Below the pieces are notes generated by a model that saw nothing but the letters and a program-made list of their open reading frames with translations, ran no database searches and was not told the DNA's origin. This document shows, in pieces, positions 1,740 to 33,340 of a stretch of DNA of 33,340 nucleotides. A program made the translations under genes and the position numbers. Position 1 is the first letter of the stretch; every line of letters starts with the position of its first letter. This DNA is from Cytophagales bacterium (GTDB lineage: Bacteria; Bacteroidota; Bacteroidia; Cytophagales; VRUD01), in NCBI GenBank assembly GCA_019456305.1, contig VRUD01000049.1, forward strand, positions 1 through 33,340. Reading direction: 5' to 3'.

Positions 1740-3260
1740 ATGGATATAAATTTAATAAAAAAATACAACAAACCCGGCCCTCGTTACACAAGCTATCCAA
1801 CAGTGCCATACTGGAATGAGACAGCCCCAACCCAGGATGAATGGAAATATTTAGTTAACAATACTTTTGAGAGATTCAACGAGCCCAATGGGATCAGCTT
1901 ATACATCCACCTGCCTTATTGTGAAAATCTATGTACCTACTGCGCCTGTAATAAAAGAATTACGGTAAACCATCAAGTTGAGGAGCCCTATATAAAGACT
2001 CTTTTAAAAGAATGGGAATTATACCTTGATATTTTTAATGTAGTACCTCTAATCAAGGAAATACATTTGGGAGGTGGAACGCCTACATTCTTTAGCCCTG
2101 GAAATCTAAAAAAACTAATAGAAGGCATTTTATCAAAAGCTAAAATTGCCAAGCCCCCCTTTAATCCCTCCCGACCAAAGGTACCTGCCCGCCACTACGT
2201 TTTGGCAGGCGGGCGGGACAGGCCCAAAGTGGGGGGAACTGGCCAACCCCTATCCCCACCAGGAGGGAAAGAGGATGGCGAAGTCCCCCCCTTTGGAGGG
2301 GATTTAGGGGGGGCTTGTGAATTTGGCTTTGAAGCGCACCCCAACAATACTACTGATGAACATTTGAAAGTTCTTTTCGATTTAGGATTCAGGAGGTTAA
2401 GCCTGGGAATCCAGGAGTTTGACCCAAAAGTGCAGAAGATCATTAACAGGATACAATCGTTTCAAATGGTTGAAAAAGTCACGTCAGAGGCCAGGAAAAT
2501 TGGTTATCAATCCATCAACTATGATTTGATATACGGCCTGCCGCTTCAGAACACCAAATCGATCATTGAAACTGTTGGTAAAGTAAAAAAACTAGTACCT
2601 GACCGAATCGCATTCTATAGCTATGCCCATGTACCGTGGCTAAAGTCAGGACAAAGGCTATTTACTGAAAAAGATTTACCCGATGAATTTGAGAAAAGAA
2701 GGATCTATGAAATTGGCAGGGAACTGCTTGAGCATGCAGGATATCATGAAATCGGCATGGATCATTTTGCTCTAAGGCATGACTCCCTTTACAAAGCAAA
2801 AATAAATAAAACTTTACACAGGAATTTTATGGGATATACGCCAGCAACTACAAAGCTTTTAATCGGATTGGGCGCATCTTCTATCAGTGACACATGGAAT
2901 GGGTTTGCTCAAAATGAGAAGACAGTGGAAAATTATACTAATAGAATTGAAAAGGGGGAATTAGCAATTTTCAAAGGTCATATACTCAATGAAGAAGATC
3001 TGATATTGCGAAAACACATTTTAAATCTCATGTGTCGTTTTGAAACTTCATGGGAATCTACCAATCTGCGGCATCCATCACTTTATGAAGGATTGGATAG
3101 GTTAAAAGAGATGGAAGCAGGCAAATTAATTACCATTAACTCAAAAAATCTAATTGTTCATAAAAAAGGGCTACCATTTATAAGAAACATTTGCATGGCC
3201 CTGGATGCCAGATTATGGAAGAAAAAGCCGAAAGAGAAATTGTTTAGTAGTACAATATAA
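1740..3260 (+). CDS. hemN: Oxygen-independent coproporphyrinogen III oxidase with in-frame insertion
   Basis: Radical-SAM enzyme that decarboxylates coproporphyrinogen III to protoporphyrinogen IX without oxygen, in haem synthesis. Seen directly: the HemN N-terminal motif PGPRYTSYPTVPYW, the cluster-binding CENLCTYC (CxxxCxxC), GGGTPTF, and SLGIQEFDPKVQKIINRIQ. At 506 residues it is about 50 longer than usual for the family. The excess is residues 138-192, a Gly/Pro-rich stretch encoded by a G+C-rich palindromic element (2151-2316), after which the normal HemN sequence resumes with FGFEAHPN. The rest of the protein looks intact, so it may still function. An anaerobic haem route suits the multihaem cytochromes in this window. 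Confidence 0.93.
   Translation: MDINLIKKYNKPGPRYTSYPTVPYWNETAPTQDEWKYLVNNTFERFNEPNGISLYIHLPYCENLCTYCACNKRITVNHQVEEPYIKTLLKEWELYLDIFNVVPLIKEIHLGGGTPTFFSPGNLKKLIEGILSKAKIAKPPFNPSRPKVPARHYVLAGGRDRPKVGGTGQPLSPPGGKEDGEVPPFGGDLGGACEFGFEAHPNNTTDEHLKVLFDLGFRRLSLGIQEFDPKVQKIINRIQSFQMVEKVTSEARKIGYQSINYDLIYGLPLQNTKSIIETVGKVKKLVPDRIAFYSYAHVPWLKSGQRLFTEKDLPDEFEKRRIYEIGRELLEHAGYHEIGMDHFALRHDSLYKAKINKTLHRNFMGYTPATTKLLIGLGASSISDTWNGFAQNEKTVENYTNRIEKGELAIFKGHILNEEDLILRKHILNLMCRFETSWESTNLRHPSLYEGLDRLKEMEAGKLITINSKNLIVHKKGLPFIRNICMALDARLWKKKPKEKLFSSTI
2151..2316 (+). repeat. G+C-rich palindromic element inserted in frame in hemN
   Basis: A 166-bp stretch starting AAGCCCCCCTTTAATCCC and ending GGGATTTAGGGGGGGCTT, so its ends form an inverted repeat of about 20 bp (2151-2171 and 2295-2316). 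A smaller palindrome, CCTGCCCGCC-N10-GGCAGGCGGG, lies inside at 2184-2213. The base composition contrasts sharply with the surrounding gene. It adds about 55 codons without a stop. A related copy lies at about 8562-8680 and shares GGAACTGGCCAA, CCCTATCCCC and AGGAGGGAAA in the same order. Confidence 0.8.
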
Positions 3261-8423: not shown

Positions 8424-9815
8424 TCAGGGTAAATTTCCTTGGGTAATTAAAAATTGCTTCTCAAAAATTATGATAGACAATGGATAATCTTCTAATAAAT
8501 TTGCAATTTCAGCATTTTTTTTACTCATCCTGTGTTTTGAAACTGTAACATTTAAAAACAAGCTACCAGCACCCCCCTCCCCCCCCGAGGGAGGGGCTTT
8601 TGCATCCCATTTCCCTCCTGTAGGGGATAGGGATTGGCCAGTTCCCTTCCCCCAGGGGGGGAGGGGGCGGCTGGGGGGAATTTGATACTCAAACCTGAAT
8701 TCTCTTTCTTCAAGAGGTTTTAAATTGTTATCTGATATTTTTTTTGCTTTAGGATACCATTGCCATTCTTCCCCTATTCTGTATTGTTTTTCTTTTAAAA
8801 TATTACCATCTGTATCCTGGATCTTAAAACTCACAATAAAAAACCTTTCAGGGTCGCCAGTCGGAACAGAATGCCCTGCAAAACTGTTTTTTAATATCAG
8901 CTTATATTTAATTATTTTCCGTATTGTGCCTTCAGTGTTGTCAGGTGTTTCCACCTGGCATTTTATTTCCAAACCATTTAAACCACTCACCTTCATCCCT
9001 TTAAATTTAGGAATACCTGAACCAGGGAAATTATGAAAGTGTGACCTTCTTTCATCAAAACCATTTGCCTGCCCGCCATATACTGCTGCTTCTGCCGGCA
9101 GGCGGGCAATTTCTCTTATAGTAGCCGGCATATGGCATGTAATACAGGTTTTTCCGGCTTTACTTGCCCAGTTATTCTTCCATTCATCACCTGTTTCAAA
9201 AGTGCAGACCAATACCGGATTTAATTCATCAACAACATTATGACAACTCATACAAAGTTTTTCAGACAGAAATTTCTTATCCGCTATGGTTTTATGCGGT
9301 GCATTTGTATTTCCAATCGTGCCAATCACATTGCCGTTCCTGATATGACAGGTTGCACAGCCAATACTTTCCTGCTGTAAACTTTTATCAAAATAAGGAT
9401 TGTTCTTTTTTACCGGTTGCCGGTAATCTGCGTTGATCAATCCTGTAACAATAAATTCCTGCTGATTCTGCAAAGGAGTATGACAATTGATACATACAAA
9501 AATTTTTCCATCTTTTTTCCATTCTGCCTGAAACTGTAAATCCTGAAAAGCGAGTGCATGCGTAGATTGTTTCCATTCACTATAAATTTCCTGATGGCAC
9601 TGCCCGCAATCTCTTGCTTTTAAAGAAGCAAGCCCTTTGGGTATTAATTGGTTAGGAATTGCTTTTTCCCAGTGTTTGGTTAAGGCAGTGGTATCATTAA
9701 TTGTTGATGTTTGTTCATTCCCGTTGTTATTAGTGCAAATTGATAAAACGAAGGTTAATTGAAAAAGGATGATTATTTCAAGGATGAATAGTTTTTTATT
9801 TAAAATCATAGTCAC
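8424..9815 (-). CDS. Pentahaem c-type cytochrome with in-frame repeat insertions
   Basis: A 463-residue exported cytochrome of the c554/multihaem type. Residues 8-26 form a hydrophobic export signal ending in SIC; the residue before this cysteine is isoleucine, so a lipoprotein anchor is doubtful. Five CxxCH haem sites lie at residues 70-74, 108-112, 153-157, 188-192 and 224-228. The C-terminal half looks like beta-rich sequence. Residues about 380-417 (PPSRPLPPWGKGTG...GGEGGAG) come from a G+C-rich palindromic insert, and residues about 237-251 may come from a second. It starts five bases after the thiolase stop and so is probably co-transcribed. A role in periplasmic electron transfer is likely; its partner is unknown. 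Confidence 0.85.
   Translation of the reverse strand: MTMILNKKLFILEIIILFQLTFVLSICTNNNGNEQTSTINDTTALTKHWEKAIPNQLIPKGLASLKARDCGQCHQEIYSEWKQSTHALAFQDLQFQAEWKKDGKIFVCINCHTPLQNQQEFIVTGLINADYRQPVKKNNPYFDKSLQQESIGCATCHIRNGNVIGTIGNTNAPHKTIADKKFLSEKLCMSCHNVVDELNPVLVCTFETGDEWKNNWASKAGKTCITCHMPATIREIARLPAEAAVYGGQANGFDERRSHFHNFPGSGIPKFKGMKVSGLNGLEIKCQVETPDNTEGTIRKIIKYKLILKNSFAGHSVPTGDPERFFIVSFKIQDTDGNILKEKQYRIGEEWQWYPKAKKISDNNLKPLEEREFRFEYQIPPSRPLPPWGKGTGQSLSPTGGKWDAKAPPSGGEGGAGSLFLNVTVSKHRMSKKNAEIANLLEDYPLSIIIFEKQFLITQGNLP
8562..8680 (-). repeat. G+C-rich palindromic element inserted in frame in cytochrome gene
   Basis: A stretch of roughly 119 bp of C/G runs in an A+T-rich gene. Read on the coding strand it shares GGAACTGGCCAA, CCCTATCCCC and AGGAGGGAAA with the hemN insert, and the two are translated in the same frame (GTGQ-LSP-GGK against GTGQ-LSP-GGK). 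The ends (CCCCCCAGCCGCCCCC and GGGGGGAGGGGGGTGCTGG) are roughly complementary. It adds about 38 codons. Confidence 0.75.
9068..9108. repeat. Short palindromic repeat in cytochrome gene
   Basis: CCTGCCCGCC at 9068-9077 and GGCAGGCGGGCA at 9097-9108 flank a 19-base centre. The same two words at shorter spacing occur within the hemN insert and, degenerate, in the mocA-like gene. In the protein it encodes RLPAEAAVYGGQAN after REIA, close to where related cytochromes usually go straight to a Gly/Arg/His-rich stretch, so it may be a small in-frame insertion. Confidence 0.45.
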
Positions 9816-11083: not shown

Positions 11084-11474
11084 TTTAAAATTCTTATATT
11101 TAAACAGTATTTGAAATAAACAGGGGGTAAGAAGGTATTAATCACAGTGAAATAAAATGACGATTGTCAGGTTTTGCTATTTAAATAAAAAAATCTTGCA
11201 AAATATAATACAACCTAAAAATCTAAATTAAAAAAAACAACTTAAATTGTAAGCATTATTAACATCATGCATCAAATTATCAGTTACTGGATGCTGGTTA
11301 CTGGGTGCTGGTTGACCCTATTATTATTAATTTTTGCAACATATTGTCTTAATGCAGCTCTTTATTCACAATAGGACGTACTTTTCCTCTTTTTAATTTA
11401 GATTTTTAGGTACAAATATTTTGTAATATTGTATGTTCGTTTTTTTATTAAAATAAAATGAATATCCTTGCATT
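11084..11474. other. Intergenic region holding a MITE-like element
   Basis: These 391 bases separate the divergent thiolase gene and the small 76-residue gene. About half (11213-11411) is the MITE-like element. The remaining A+T-rich flanks presumably hold the promoters of both genes, but I found no convincing TTTG/TAnnTTTG pair. No ORF or RNA gene is apparent. Confidence 0.6.
11213..11411. mobile_element. MITE-like element, 199 bp with 20-bp terminal inverted repeats
   Basis: The ends are ACCTAAAAATCTAAATTAAA (11213-11232) and its exact reverse complement (11392-11411). The bases just outside are ACA on both sides (11210-11212 and 11412-11414), a possible 3-bp target duplication. The first 118 bases recur without mismatch at 33223-33340, starting exactly at the terminal repeat. 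There is no transposase ORF, so it must be mobilised in trans if it moves at all. Confidence 0.75.
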
Positions 11475-11744: not shown

Positions 11745-14732
11745 ATGAAAAAATTAACTTTAACATTCGCAGCAGCATTATTAATTATTCAATATGCAAT
11801 AATCAATAATCAATCGCAGGCACAGTCCAAAGTCTTCATCCCAGACATCAACTTCCGCTTTTACCTCAATACAAACTATCCCACTTTTATGGATGGTTCA
11901 GGCGACAGTTTGCTAATTGACTCCGCGGCAACTCTGACCAATTTGAATTGCACCGGTCAAAGTATTGCTGACCTTACGGGAGTGGAATACTTTGTTAATA
12001 TTACAAATCTTGATTGTTCTTGGAATCAATTAACTTCCCTGCCCGACCTAACGAATAATACTGCTTTGCAAGGGCTTTTCTGTTATGGTAATCAATTAAT
12101 CTCTTTACCTGACCTTACTGGCAATACCGCTTTGTCGAATCTTGATTGTAATGGCAATCAATTAACCTCCTTGCCTGGTTTTACAAATAATACCGCTTTG
12201 CAATGGCTTGTTTGTTATGATAATCAATTAACCTCCCTGCCAGCCCTTACGAATAATCCCGCTTTGCAATGGCTTTGGTGTTATAATAATCAATTAACTT
12301 CCCTGCCTGCTCTTACGAATAATACAGCTTTAGTGGATCTTTATTGTTATAATAATCAGCTAACCTCCCTGCCTAATCTTACAACCAACACTGCTTTGCT
12401 ACGGATTCGTTGTTATTTTAATCAATTAACCTCCCTGCCTGACCTTTCGAATAATACCGCTTTGATACAGCTTTTTTGTTATAATAATAAATTAACTGCC
12501 CTGCCTGACCTTACGAATAATACCGCTTTGGTTCAGCTTTGGTGTAATTTTAATAAATTAAACTTTTCATCTGCAAGAGAGCTAAGAATAGCTGATACCA
12601 TTTCAACACTTACCATGTATACTTACAGCCCTCAAAACCCTTTTGGTACACCGGCTACTTTTGAACTAGATACAGGAGATACGATCATTTTAAGCATTGC
12701 CAGTCAGGATTCAGCGTTAAGCTACCAGTGGTTCGTGGGAACAGATACCATTGTTGGCGCTACGGATACATTTTTAATACTTGCGAATGTTACTGTGGCT
12801 GAGAGCGGAGTTTATAGCTGCAAGTCTTACGGCACAGCATTAAATAAACCGCCAATGACATGGAATCCGGGCATCAGCAGCTTTGTTTCAGAGTTTTTCA
12901 TAGTAATCGTTGGACCAAGACTCAAAGCCTTCATCCCAGACATCAACTTCCGCGATTTTCTCAATACAACCTACCCCGGTTTTATAATAGGTGATAGCTT
13001 ACTTACCGATTCAGCAGCTACTATCACGGGTTTATTGAGTTGCAGTGGTCTAAATATTGCTGACATTACGGGATTAGAATGGTTTTTTAATATTCAATGG
13101 CTCCATTGTTATAATAATCTATTGACCACTTTGCCTGACATGTCAGCCTTTACAAATTTAAAATGGTTGCATTGCTATGATAACCAATTAACCTCTTTGC
13201 CCGATCTGTCGGCAAGTACAAACATACAACAACTCTATTGTTATAATAATCAATTAACCGCCTTGCCTAATCTTTCATCTCCTAATTTTTCTTTGCAAAA
13301 GTTATATTGTGAATATAATCAACTAACGGCTTTACCTGATCTTTCTTCCCACTTTGTTTTGCAAAGATTGTATTGTAATGATAATCAAATTACCAGCTTG
13401 CCAGATCTCGCCAATACAGACTTAGCGTGGCTTTATTGCTGGAGAAATAAATTAGACTTTTCAGATGCAAGAGAGTTAAGAATAGCTGATGCCATTTTAA
13501 CACTTACCGCTTATGCCTACAGCCCTCAAAACCCTTTTGGCACAGCCGATACTTTTAATCTGAATACGGGCGATACACTCATATTAAGCATAGCCAGCCA
13601 GGATTCTGCGTTGAGCTACCAATGGTTTAGGGGAACGGATACGATAACGGGTGCAACAGATACCCTTTTAATAATTCCCAATGTACTGCTCACTGATAGC
13701 GGAATTTATACCTGCAGGTCTTATGGTACAGCGCTTGGTAGCCCCCCAATGATCTTTGGACCCGGCATCAGCAGCTTTATTTCAGAGCCGCTGACCGTAA
13801 ATATTCTTTCAGCGTCTCTTTCTGCTTCAATATCTTATCAACAAAATGTTTCCTGTAATGGCGGGATGGATGGAGAAGCAGCAGTAACTGTAACTGGCGG
13901 CAGTCCCCCATATACCCTGCAATGGTCCGATTCATCAGCACAAATTACGGACACTGCATATAGTTTGTTTGCAGATATTTATTATGTTGTGGTAACAGAT
14001 TCATTGGGCGCTGTTGACACTGCACTTCTAACAATTACTGAACCACCTGCCATCACCGGAAGCCAAACCCTCACCATCTGTGCAGGTGACAGCGTAATAG
14101 TGGGAACCAGTGTTTACAATACTACCGGAGTTTACACCGATATATTCACAGCATCCAACGGCTGCGACAGCACATTCACCACTAACCTAACCGTTAATCC
14201 ATTGCCAATCGTCAGCTTTACCGGCTTAGACACAAGCTATTGTCTTAATGATGCCGCAGTAACCCTTACAGGCACACCAACAGGCGGAACATTCAGTGGC
14301 ACAGGAATCAGCAGCAGCCAGTTCAACCCTGCCAATGCCGACACGGGAACACACACAATCACCTACACTTATACTGATGGAAACAACTGTACAGACAGCA
14401 TCTCCCAAAATGTAACAGTTAATAATTGTTTAGGCATCAATGATCAATCATCAATAAACAATGATCAATTAAAAGTATATCCCAATCCAAACACAGGTGA
14501 ATTCACCGTAACATTCAAAATAACAGAAAAGCAAAATATCAACCTCAAAGTAATTAACATAAAAGGCCAGGTAATTTATGAAGAAAATCTAAGTGATTTT
14601 ACGGGCCAGTATCAAAATAAAATAAATATGAGTGGCTACCTGCCTGCCGGACAGGCAGGTGCAAAAGGAATTTATAATTTACAATTATCAACTAAGGAGA
14701 AAACTATCAACAGAAAGATAATTCTTGAATAA
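11745..14732 (+). CDS. Secreted leucine-rich-repeat protein with T9SS sorting tail
   Basis: A 995-residue surface or secreted protein. The signal peptide is about residues 1-27 (MKKLTLTFAAALLI, ending SQAQ). Two copies of one module follow: a lead-in of the form FIPDINFR-LNT-YP, a set of cysteine-containing LRRs of about 23 residues (LxCYxNQLTSLPxLTNNTAL), an ISTLT-YSPQNPFGT linker, and an Ig-like domain (YQWFxGTDTI-GATDT). Then come a SprB-like repeat (VSCNGGMDGEAAVTVTGGSP), two further beta modules, and a type A T9SS C-terminal domain from LKVYPNPNTGEF to NRKIILE. Within that domain, PAGQAG is encoded by a 23-bp palindrome. The ligand is unknown; adhesion or binding is likely. It interrupts the minus-strand aromatic-degradation genes. 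Confidence 0.9.
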   Translation: MKKLTLTFAAALLIIQYAIINNQSQAQSKVFIPDINFRFYLNTNYPTFMDGSGDSLLIDSAATLTNLNCTGQSIADLTGVEYFVNITNLDCSWNQLTSLPDLTNNTALQGLFCYGNQLISLPDLTGNTALSNLDCNGNQLTSLPGFTNNTALQWLVCYDNQLTSLPALTNNPALQWLWCYNNQLTSLPALTNNTALVDLYCYNNQLTSLPNLTTNTALLRIRCYFNQLTSLPDLSNNTALIQLFCYNNKLTALPDLTNNTALVQLWCNFNKLNFSSARELRIADTISTLTMYTYSPQNPFGTPATFELDTGDTIILSIASQDSALSYQWFVGTDTIVGATDTFLILANVTVAESGVYSCKSYGTALNKPPMTWNPGISSFVSEFFIVIVGPRLKAFIPDINFRDFLNTTYPGFIIGDSLLTDSAATITGLLSCSGLNIADITGLEWFFNIQWLHCYNNLLTTLPDMSAFTNLKWLHCYDNQLTSLPDLSASTNIQQLYCYNNQLTALPNLSSPNFSLQKLYCEYNQLTALPDLSSHFVLQRLYCNDNQITSLPDLANTDLAWLYCWRNKLDFSDARELRIADAILTLTAYAYSPQNPFGTADTFNLNTGDTLILSIASQDSALSYQWFRGTDTITGATDTLLIIPNVLLTDSGIYTCRSYGTALGSPPMIFGPGISSFISEPLTVNILSASLSASISYQQNVSCNGGMDGEAAVTVTGGSPPYTLQWSDSSAQITDTAYSLFADIYYVVVTDSLGAVDTALLTITEPPAITGSQTLTICAGDSVIVGTSVYNTTGVYTDIFTASNGCDSTFTTNLTVNPLPIVSFTGLDTSYCLNDAAVTLTGTPTGGTFSGTGISSSQFNPANADTGTHTITYTYTDGNNCTDSISQNVTVNNCLGINDQSSINNDQLKVYPNPNTGEFTVTFKITEKQNINLKVINIKGQVIYEENLSDFTGQYQNKINMSGYLPAGQAGAKGIYNLQLSTKEKTINRKIILE
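14638..14660. repeat. 23-bp palindrome in frame in the T9SS tail
   Basis: The near-perfect palindrome ACCTGCCTGCCGGACAGGCAGGT is split here into ACCTGCCTGCC and GGACAGGCAGGT. It encodes LPAGQAG between MSGY and AKGIYNLQL. The usual T9SS domain runs directly from a short hydrophobic turn into KGIY, so this looks like a small in-frame insertion of the same G+C-rich repeat family. Confidence 0.6.
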
Positions 14733-32537: not shown

Positions 32538-33194
32538 ATGAAAAATATAGAAGGAATAGAATACTACCCACCATTAGAAGAAAAAATTAACATCATTTCT
32601 CATGCTATAGGTTTCGTTTTAGGCATTGTTGGTTTGGTATTTTTAGTTACGCATGCAATTCTGCACGGAAACGTTTGGCATATTGTTAGTTTTAGCATTT
32701 TCGGAGCAAGTTTAATAATATTATATGCTGCTTCTACTTTTTACCACAGCGCTAAAAAGCCAGAGTTGAGAAGCAGATTGAGAATAATTGATCACATATT
32801 TATTTATGTTCTCATTGCCGGAACTTACACCCCTTTTACACTTGTCACTCTACATGGTAGAATAGGTTGGGTGATTTTCGGTATTGTTTGGGGGGTGGCA
32901 TTAATTGGAATAATATTGAAACTTTTCTTTACAGTGAAATATAGTTTAATTTCGACTATAATGTATGTATTAATGAGTGGGATTATCTTTTTCGCCATAA
33001 AACCATTAATTAATAATTTACTTTTAGAAGGTTTAATTTGGCTTATTGCAGGAGGAATATCTTACCTAATTGGTGCAATTTTGTACAGCATTGAAAAAAT
33101 AAAATTCAATCACGCCATCTTCCATATATTTGTTTTAATTGCTAGTTTTTGTCATTTTATGTCGGTGTTCTTTTATGTTTTACCAAGTGAATAA
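32538..33194 (+). CDS. Hemolysin III / PAQR-family membrane protein
   Basis: A 218-residue integral membrane protein with about seven hydrophobic segments. Family motifs are EEKINIISHAIGFVLG, STFYHSAKK, LRIIDHIFIYVLIAGTYTPF and the C-terminal HAIFHIFVLIASFCHFM. The histidines form the metal site of the PAQR/CREST superfamily. The name hemolysin III is historic; most members are not known toxins and may act in lipid or membrane homeostasis. It has no visible link to the aromatic genes. Confidence 0.9.
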   Translation: MKNIEGIEYYPPLEEKINIISHAIGFVLGIVGLVFLVTHAILHGNVWHIVSFSIFGASLIILYAASTFYHSAKKPELRSRLRIIDHIFIYVLIAGTYTPFTLVTLHGRIGWVIFGIVWGVALIGIILKLFFTVKYSLISTIMYVLMSGIIFFAIKPLINNLLLEGLIWLIAGGISYLIGAILYSIEKIKFNHAIFHIFVLIASFCHFMSVFFYVLPSE

Positions 33195-33222
33195 ATCAGC
33201 ATCTGTTTGGAGATGAATTAAC

Positions 33223-33340
33223 ACCTAAAAATCTAAATTAAAAAAAACAACTTAAATTGTAAGCATTATTAACATCATGCATCAAATTATCAGTTACTGG
33301 ATGCTGGTTACTGGGTGCTGGTTGACCCTATTATTATTAA
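33223..33340. mobile_element. Second copy of the MITE-like element, cut by the window end
   Basis: These 118 bases are identical, as far as I can align them, to 11213-11330 in the same orientation. They start at the same terminal repeat ACCTAAAAATCTAAATTAAA. The remaining 81 or so bases of the element would lie beyond the window. Confidence 0.8.

Follow-up and report, generated by a model that had tools for sequence, protein, structure and literature searches.

The palindromic insert in hemN

In the window (the whole 33,340-nt stretch of DNA that was analysed), bp 1740-3260 of the + strand encode a 506-aa oxygen-independent coproporphyrinogen III oxidase, HemN, as identified by the profile TIGR00538, which matched above its cut-off (411 bits) in two pieces around an insert, and by the closest PDB relative, 1OLT of E. 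coli, which aligned to HemN residues 2-128 and 193-503 only. The insert, at bp 2151-2315 (+ strand), was 165 bp long and coded for 55 aa (KPPFNPS...GGDLGGA) with the reading frame kept; it was located between conserved blocks, in the gap at 1OLT residues 128-140, and a single-sequence AlphaFold2 model of HemN had a pLDDT of 32 and was unusable. Its G+C content was 63.6%, versus 39.5% for the window. Folding of bp 2140-2330 as RNA gave -104.5 kcal/mol (z = -6.1), a value reached by 0/200 shuffles, and folding of the insert region as DNA gave z = -4.2. An earlier note on this DNA had described an in-frame, G+C-rich palindrome of about 55 aa in an otherwise normal HemN, and the coordinates, size and frame that it gave were right to within a base. 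The comparison with HemN relatives that it had proposed revealed that the insert was missing from all 29 proteins from same-order genomes that were aligned with MAFFT (29/29), with the regions on both sides aligning, and by this alignment the insert had a length of 53-55 aa.

The insert has a left terminal arm, AGCCCCCCTTTAATCCCTCC (bp 2152-2171, + strand), and a right terminal arm, GGAGGGGATTTAGGGGGGGCT (bp 2295-2315, + strand), which together form the inverted repeat I16 and have the family ends AGCCCC...GGGGCT. It was found to be composite. A smaller palindrome of a second family, CCTGCCCGCCACTACGTTTTGGCAGGCGGGC (bp 2184-2214, + strand), is nested in the left half of the main element and has 8 copies genome-wide (up to 3 mismatches), at least two others of which also lie in frame in genes, and a type-A core with its right hairpin (...GGAACTGGCCAACCCCTATCCCC..., bp 2223-2314, + strand) follows as an nhmmer cluster scoring 71 bits. 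It was also noticed that a 69-nt inverted repeat (77% complementary), with a sequence unrelated to that of the insert, is located at bp 1508-1698 just upstream of hemN.

A second copy was located at bp 8566-8674 on the - strand, being 81% complementary to bp 2234-2302 over 69 nt. This type-A copy, SRPLPPWGKGTGQSLSPTGGKWDAKAPPSGGEGGAG, contains inverted repeats I1 and I7, scored 66 bits with nhmmer and is read through by an ORF of 467 aa; its host, a multihaem cytochrome gene (bp 8424-9815, - strand, 463 aa) with Pfam Cytochrome_C554, Cytochrome_C7 and MtrC-like domains, carries it in frame close to the C-terminus. The sharing of sequence blocks with a copy in an unrelated gene, also claimed beforehand, was thus borne out, and since a 191-bp query had 56 matches in the genome, the likeness of the two copies is not due to chance.

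Several other features of the window were recorded. The region at bp 4268-30000, in this Bacteroidota-like genome, resembles, as recognised from translations only, a cluster for anaerobic degradation of the benzoyl-CoA type, containing several BcrA/BcrD-like ATPases, BcrB/BcrC or 2-hydroxyglutaryl-CoA dehydratase-like subunits, enoyl-CoA hydratases, an alcohol dehydrogenase and an acyl-CoA ligase. A leucine-rich-repeat protein (bp 11745-14732) has near its C-terminus a short in-frame YLPAGQAGAKG (bp 14637-14665), which looks like another small in-frame palindrome, of the CTGCCGGCAGGCAGG type. A 149-bp direct repeat (90% identical) is present at bp 11182-11330 and bp 33192-33340, the latter copy ending at the contig end, and probably belongs to yet another family of repeats, at which the assembly broke off.

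A family of paired hairpins and its host genes

The genome (4.25 Mb in 159 contigs, 98% complete) was found to contain 80 matches to the right-end motif CTTTGGGGGGATTTAGGGGGGC with up to 3 mismatches, and a profile search (nhmmer) of the stretches around copies gave 64 clusters, a census that is limited by search sensitivity and may miss diverged copies. As judged from the type IX secretion genes found, the genome probably belongs to Bacteroidota, perhaps to Cytophagales. The unit consists of two inverted hairpins of the CCCCCCAAAGGGGGG type, with runs of G and C, flanking a spacer; each of the two ends forms a hairpin of its own, and the element termini are the inverted repeats AGCCCCCC...GGGGGGCT. 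These end hairpins recur as inverted pairs 75-87 bp apart, with lengths of 99-111 bp, and two-ended copies are mostly 99-177 bp long, the exceptions being a 54-bp solo, one 73-bp copy and one 87-bp copy. The two main variants were type A, AGCCCCCCTCTAACTCCCCCCAAAGGGGGGAGAACTGGCCA...GGCAAAGTCCCCCCTTTGGGGGGATTTAGGGGGGCT, of 108 bp, and type B, with the CCTAAATCCCCCCAAAGGGGGGACTT hairpin at both ends, of 99 bp; some copies had longer nested arms or a replaced right end containing GATGTCCAGTGGACATC. No Rfam family matched the element, nor did any entry of the plasmid collection.

Among the hosts, NCBIfam profiles identified transketolase, PcrA, DeoC, asparagine synthase (two element copies), PrmC, PheT, MutL, AtpG, AlaS (two), LigA, HolA, XseA, HemF, UvrA, GlmM, acyl-CoA dehydrogenase, MurF/Alr and HemN, so that both coproporphyrinogen oxidases, HemN and HemF, carry inserts. 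LigA is the sole full-length copy in the genome and is split between profile positions 149 and 151, the only other match being a weak fragment of 55 positions. Genes for DNA repair and replication recur among the hosts (mutL, L107; ligA, L111; xseA, L115; uvrA, L119; holA, L114; pcrA, L095); this recurrence is an impression, and a link between a weakened repair state and the spread of the element is possible.

Many core enzymes with insertions of 35-60 aa might suggest that the host genes are dead or duplicated and that the repeats mark pseudogenes. However, the frames are intact throughout, LigA has one full-length copy, HemN gives a single match at E<=1e-60 within the genome, and many of the genes hit are normally essential and single-copy, such that their loss would leave the cell inviable. 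We regard this explanation as extremely unlikely, and rejected the pseudogene or artefact reading on the grounds of the intact frames and the single-copy LigA.

In-frame placement and signs of translation

Inspection of the 64 clusters showed that 60 lie in frame inside genes (about 55 proteins), bearing out genome-wide the placement that the earlier note had suggested counting. Fifty-nine were scored by an ORF test, in which the copy had to lie within a through-reading ORF of 150 aa or more and be flanked on either side by 15 codons or more, and the other one, at a contig end (L123), appears from our own reading of the sequence to lie in a GyrA-like C-terminal tail. Of random windows of 120 bp (100 bp with a margin of 10 at either end) from the same regions, 68% passed the test (1509/2208), and the comparison with 60/64 gave a Fisher p of 1.7e-6. 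The four remaining copies were found just past a gene end, between two genes, in an rRNA leader and beside a gene end; the one in the leader is a half element (L118:2467-2521) about 80 bp upstream of a 16S rRNA gene. Insert positions along the host genes ranged from 0.07 to 0.90 in relative terms. A coding-statistics test ignoring the element revealed no copy with coding flanks in different frames. Lengths were divisible by three in 37 of the 40 two-ended copies when measured between outermost ends, and in 31/31 by a stricter boundary rule; the three copies that are not multiples of three, that in hemN included, keep the frame all the same. Given the open frames per copy, the probability that no copy closes the host frame by chance is about 1e-16; as the copies share ancestry, the figures in this paragraph are guides and not exact values.

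The choice of frame was also biased. Where a copy of 85 bp or longer offered more than one open frame, the most hydrophilic one was in use in 27/40 cases, against an expectation of 12.8 (p = 1e-5, the lowest value that 100,000 resamplings can give). The type-A copies had one orientation relative to the gene in 13/13 cases (p = 2e-4), the other strand also having an open frame. Such biases in frame and orientation would be expected from selection on the peptide, and insertion coupled to orientation would also give part of them. By this evidence the inserts are probably translated. The stable hairpins sitting in the middle of conserved genes could instead be passed over by ribosome bypass or taken out by RNA processing, as in mitochondrial byp-like elements, but neither bypass nor excision needs an open frame, a length divisible by three or a hydrophilic frame, all three of which were seen, and we therefore consider untranslated inserts very unlikely.

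Also very unlikely is that the repeats serve the host, for instance by providing flexible linkers or by forming mRNA hairpins that tune expression or stability. The consistently hydrophilic peptide and the stable fold speak for such a role; however, the hosts are diverse and unrelated, the positions are scattered over the range given above, the family is confined to this lineage, and HemN relatives do without the insert.

Probable mobility, distribution and relation to known elements

In several pairs of copies, stretches of 95-110 bp were 100% identical between unrelated loci with unrelated flanks, for example those in mutL (L107) and hemF (L116), and identity over such lengths in unrelated genes indicates recent spread. 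No target-site duplication above chance was detected, a direct repeat of at least 2 bp being present at 4/40 junctions versus 2.4 in shuffles, and one of at least 3 bp at a single junction. The genome has 7 matches to Y1 transposases, which were considered as a dedicated mobiliser and rejected: none of the seven genes is bracketed by element ends (0/7), and only one (L272) has an element in its vicinity, about 1 kb off and inside another host gene. No dedicated transposase was detected.

Taken together, it is highly probable that the insert is a non-autonomous mobile selfish palindrome that now resides almost only in protein genes and is tolerated as a translated hydrophilic loop. Copies would reach new sites via a trans-acting activity, perhaps a Y1/HUH transposase working on single-stranded hairpins, the most natural guess in that such an enzyme acts on hairpins without target duplication. 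Copies breaking the frame would be removed by selection and those kept would be multiples of three in length, with an open frame; the ribosome would read them as a hydrophilic segment rich in Pro, Gly and Lys (SPPKSPQRGDFP...GKVPPLGGFRGA or SPPLTPPKGGRTGQ...GKVPPLGGFRGA), and the host protein would tolerate this segment as a loop, with a presumably near-neutral effect on the enzyme.

Outside this genome, a search for the end motif at up to 2 mismatches gave just one degenerate match in 290 further genomes from the order, at up to 1 mismatch the motif was missing from 394 genomes of the phylum sample, and the exact 28-mer had no match in the genome contigs searched (own genome left out). The looser motif, AAGTCCCC N3-9 GGGGATTTAGGGG, was widespread, occurring in Cyanobacteria, Bacteroidota, Poribacteria and others, mostly as a single or short double hairpin in intergenic DNA, with 10/87 places in long ORFs versus 77% of random windows. 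Four motif-rich genomes of the same order had it in ORFs in 0/14, 0/11, 0/12 and 4/30 cases (4/67 in total). In one same-order genome (G123), in which most copies are intergenic, a 24-bp hairpin with this motif is present twice in frame (L354:1576-1600 and 2029-2053; KVPFGDLGA) within a single long ORF whose reading resembles methionine synthase.

On viral contigs the motif was found on 57 stretches, with 28 of 63 occurrences in ORFs (about 18 of them distinct) and peptides such as PPKSPKGGL. On the contig IMGVR_UViG_3300002175_000217 (L388:3627-5027), a portal gene (PHROG 64) contains the exact hairpin of our genome, AGCCCCCCTAAATCCCCCCAAAGGGGGG, read in frame as SPPKSPQRGEG; two relatives with 81% identity have a different sequence in the loop concerned. 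At least six related viral contigs (L400, L404, L431, L434, L439 and L446) share a gene that has the hairpin in frame (KETTPKSPEGTLVE). A match to the type-A core on one viral contig was dismissed as chance, the hairpins being missing. Intragenic copies thus also occur elsewhere, but only in this genome and, partly, on viruses is that location the dominant one.

Insertion followed by purifying selection alone predicts more than 4/64 intergenic copies, and the account therefore needs, in addition, either gene targeting or a loss of copies between genes. It is possible, though on balance we doubt it, that the element prefers genes at the time of insertion, for example through single-stranded DNA exposed by transcription with the orientation set by transcription, instead of being brought to 94% by selection alone. 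The in-gene fraction above that of random windows and the single orientation of the 13 type-A copies would agree with such a preference, and near-identical young copies are also in genes, so that decay of older copies between genes does not account for the pattern. However, selection for the hydrophilic frame explains the orientation bias equally well, and with the hairpin motif almost wholly intergenic in same-order genomes, any targeting would be specific to this lineage.

The earlier note had likened the insert to the protein-invading palindromes of Rickettsia, and this holds for the effect, namely an in-frame insert and a family spread over unrelated genes. The Rickettsia palindromic elements RPE-1 to RPE-10 measure 100-150 bp and, through in-frame insertion, lengthen the products of many conserved genes that are unrelated to one another by 30-50 aa (Ogata 2000; reviewed in PMC10969869 and PMC2229807); R. 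conorii has 44 copies, nearly half of them in ORFs (PMC10969869), and Rickettsia PheT also carries a palindromic insert (PMC3767692). Our element shares with RPEs the palindromic repeat, the long stem-loop, the in-frame position in unrelated conserved genes and PheT as a common host, whereas it apparently occurs in another bacterial lineage, has hairpins with G/C runs and lies in genes in 60/64 cases versus about half in R. conorii. REPINs are doublets of REP sequences forming hairpins and moved by RAYTs, extragenic and next to a RAYT gene (Bertels and Rainey 2011, PMC3116915). They resemble the element in the inverted pair of REP-like hairpins, the variable spacer, the size of about 100 bp, the single hairpins as apparent remnants and the recent copying, but here just 4/64 copies are intergenic and no Y1 gene is bracketed by the element. 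The anatomy of two inverted hairpins and a spacer fits REPINs better than RPEs, and the element is best read as RPE-like in effect and REPIN-like in build.

For GTAG/CGTC REPs, too, copies within ORFs have been reported, from Opitutus terrae and R. conorii among others, with DNA repair genes (uvrA, uvrD/rep and ligase) as frequent hosts (Di Nocera 2013, PMC3733652). Most of these REPs are intergenic, with GTAG or CGTC tags (PMC3733652). Repair-gene hosts (uvrA, pcrA, mutL, ligA and xseA) are a likeness to these, whereas a tag or its complement was near the ends of just 6-8 of the 64 copies per string. With MITEs the element has terminal inverted repeats in common, but not target-site duplication. 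No description of such elements in Bacteroidota was found in the limited collection of literature searched, nor was a name for the looser hairpin motif, and a search with the literal motif returned no relevant paper.

Repeats that invade proteins have been regarded as something peculiar to Rickettsia and Wolbachia, apart from scattered cases among REPs. It is possible, though less likely than not, that the element is specialised for residence in proteins, with insertion biased to genes and to one orientation and with variants that are nearly all multiples of three and free of stops in a hydrophilic frame, and that the lineage moved from an ancestral intergenic REPIN niche to an intragenic one. 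As the hairpin type is common to several phyla and lies in frame in phage genes, phages may move it between hosts. The decoration of about 55 proteins by one family in a 4.2-Mb genome, apparently of Bacteroidota, with almost no intergenic copies and with hosts covering replication, repair, tRNA charging and ATP synthase subunits, makes this a large new case of protein-extending selfish DNA. It provides a natural experiment on the tolerance of proteins for insertions of 30-60 aa, in which the identical copies form a set of recent insertions and the same-order genomes that keep the hairpin intergenic form a contrast set, and the old question of whether targeting or selection lies behind the in-frame location thereby becomes testable.
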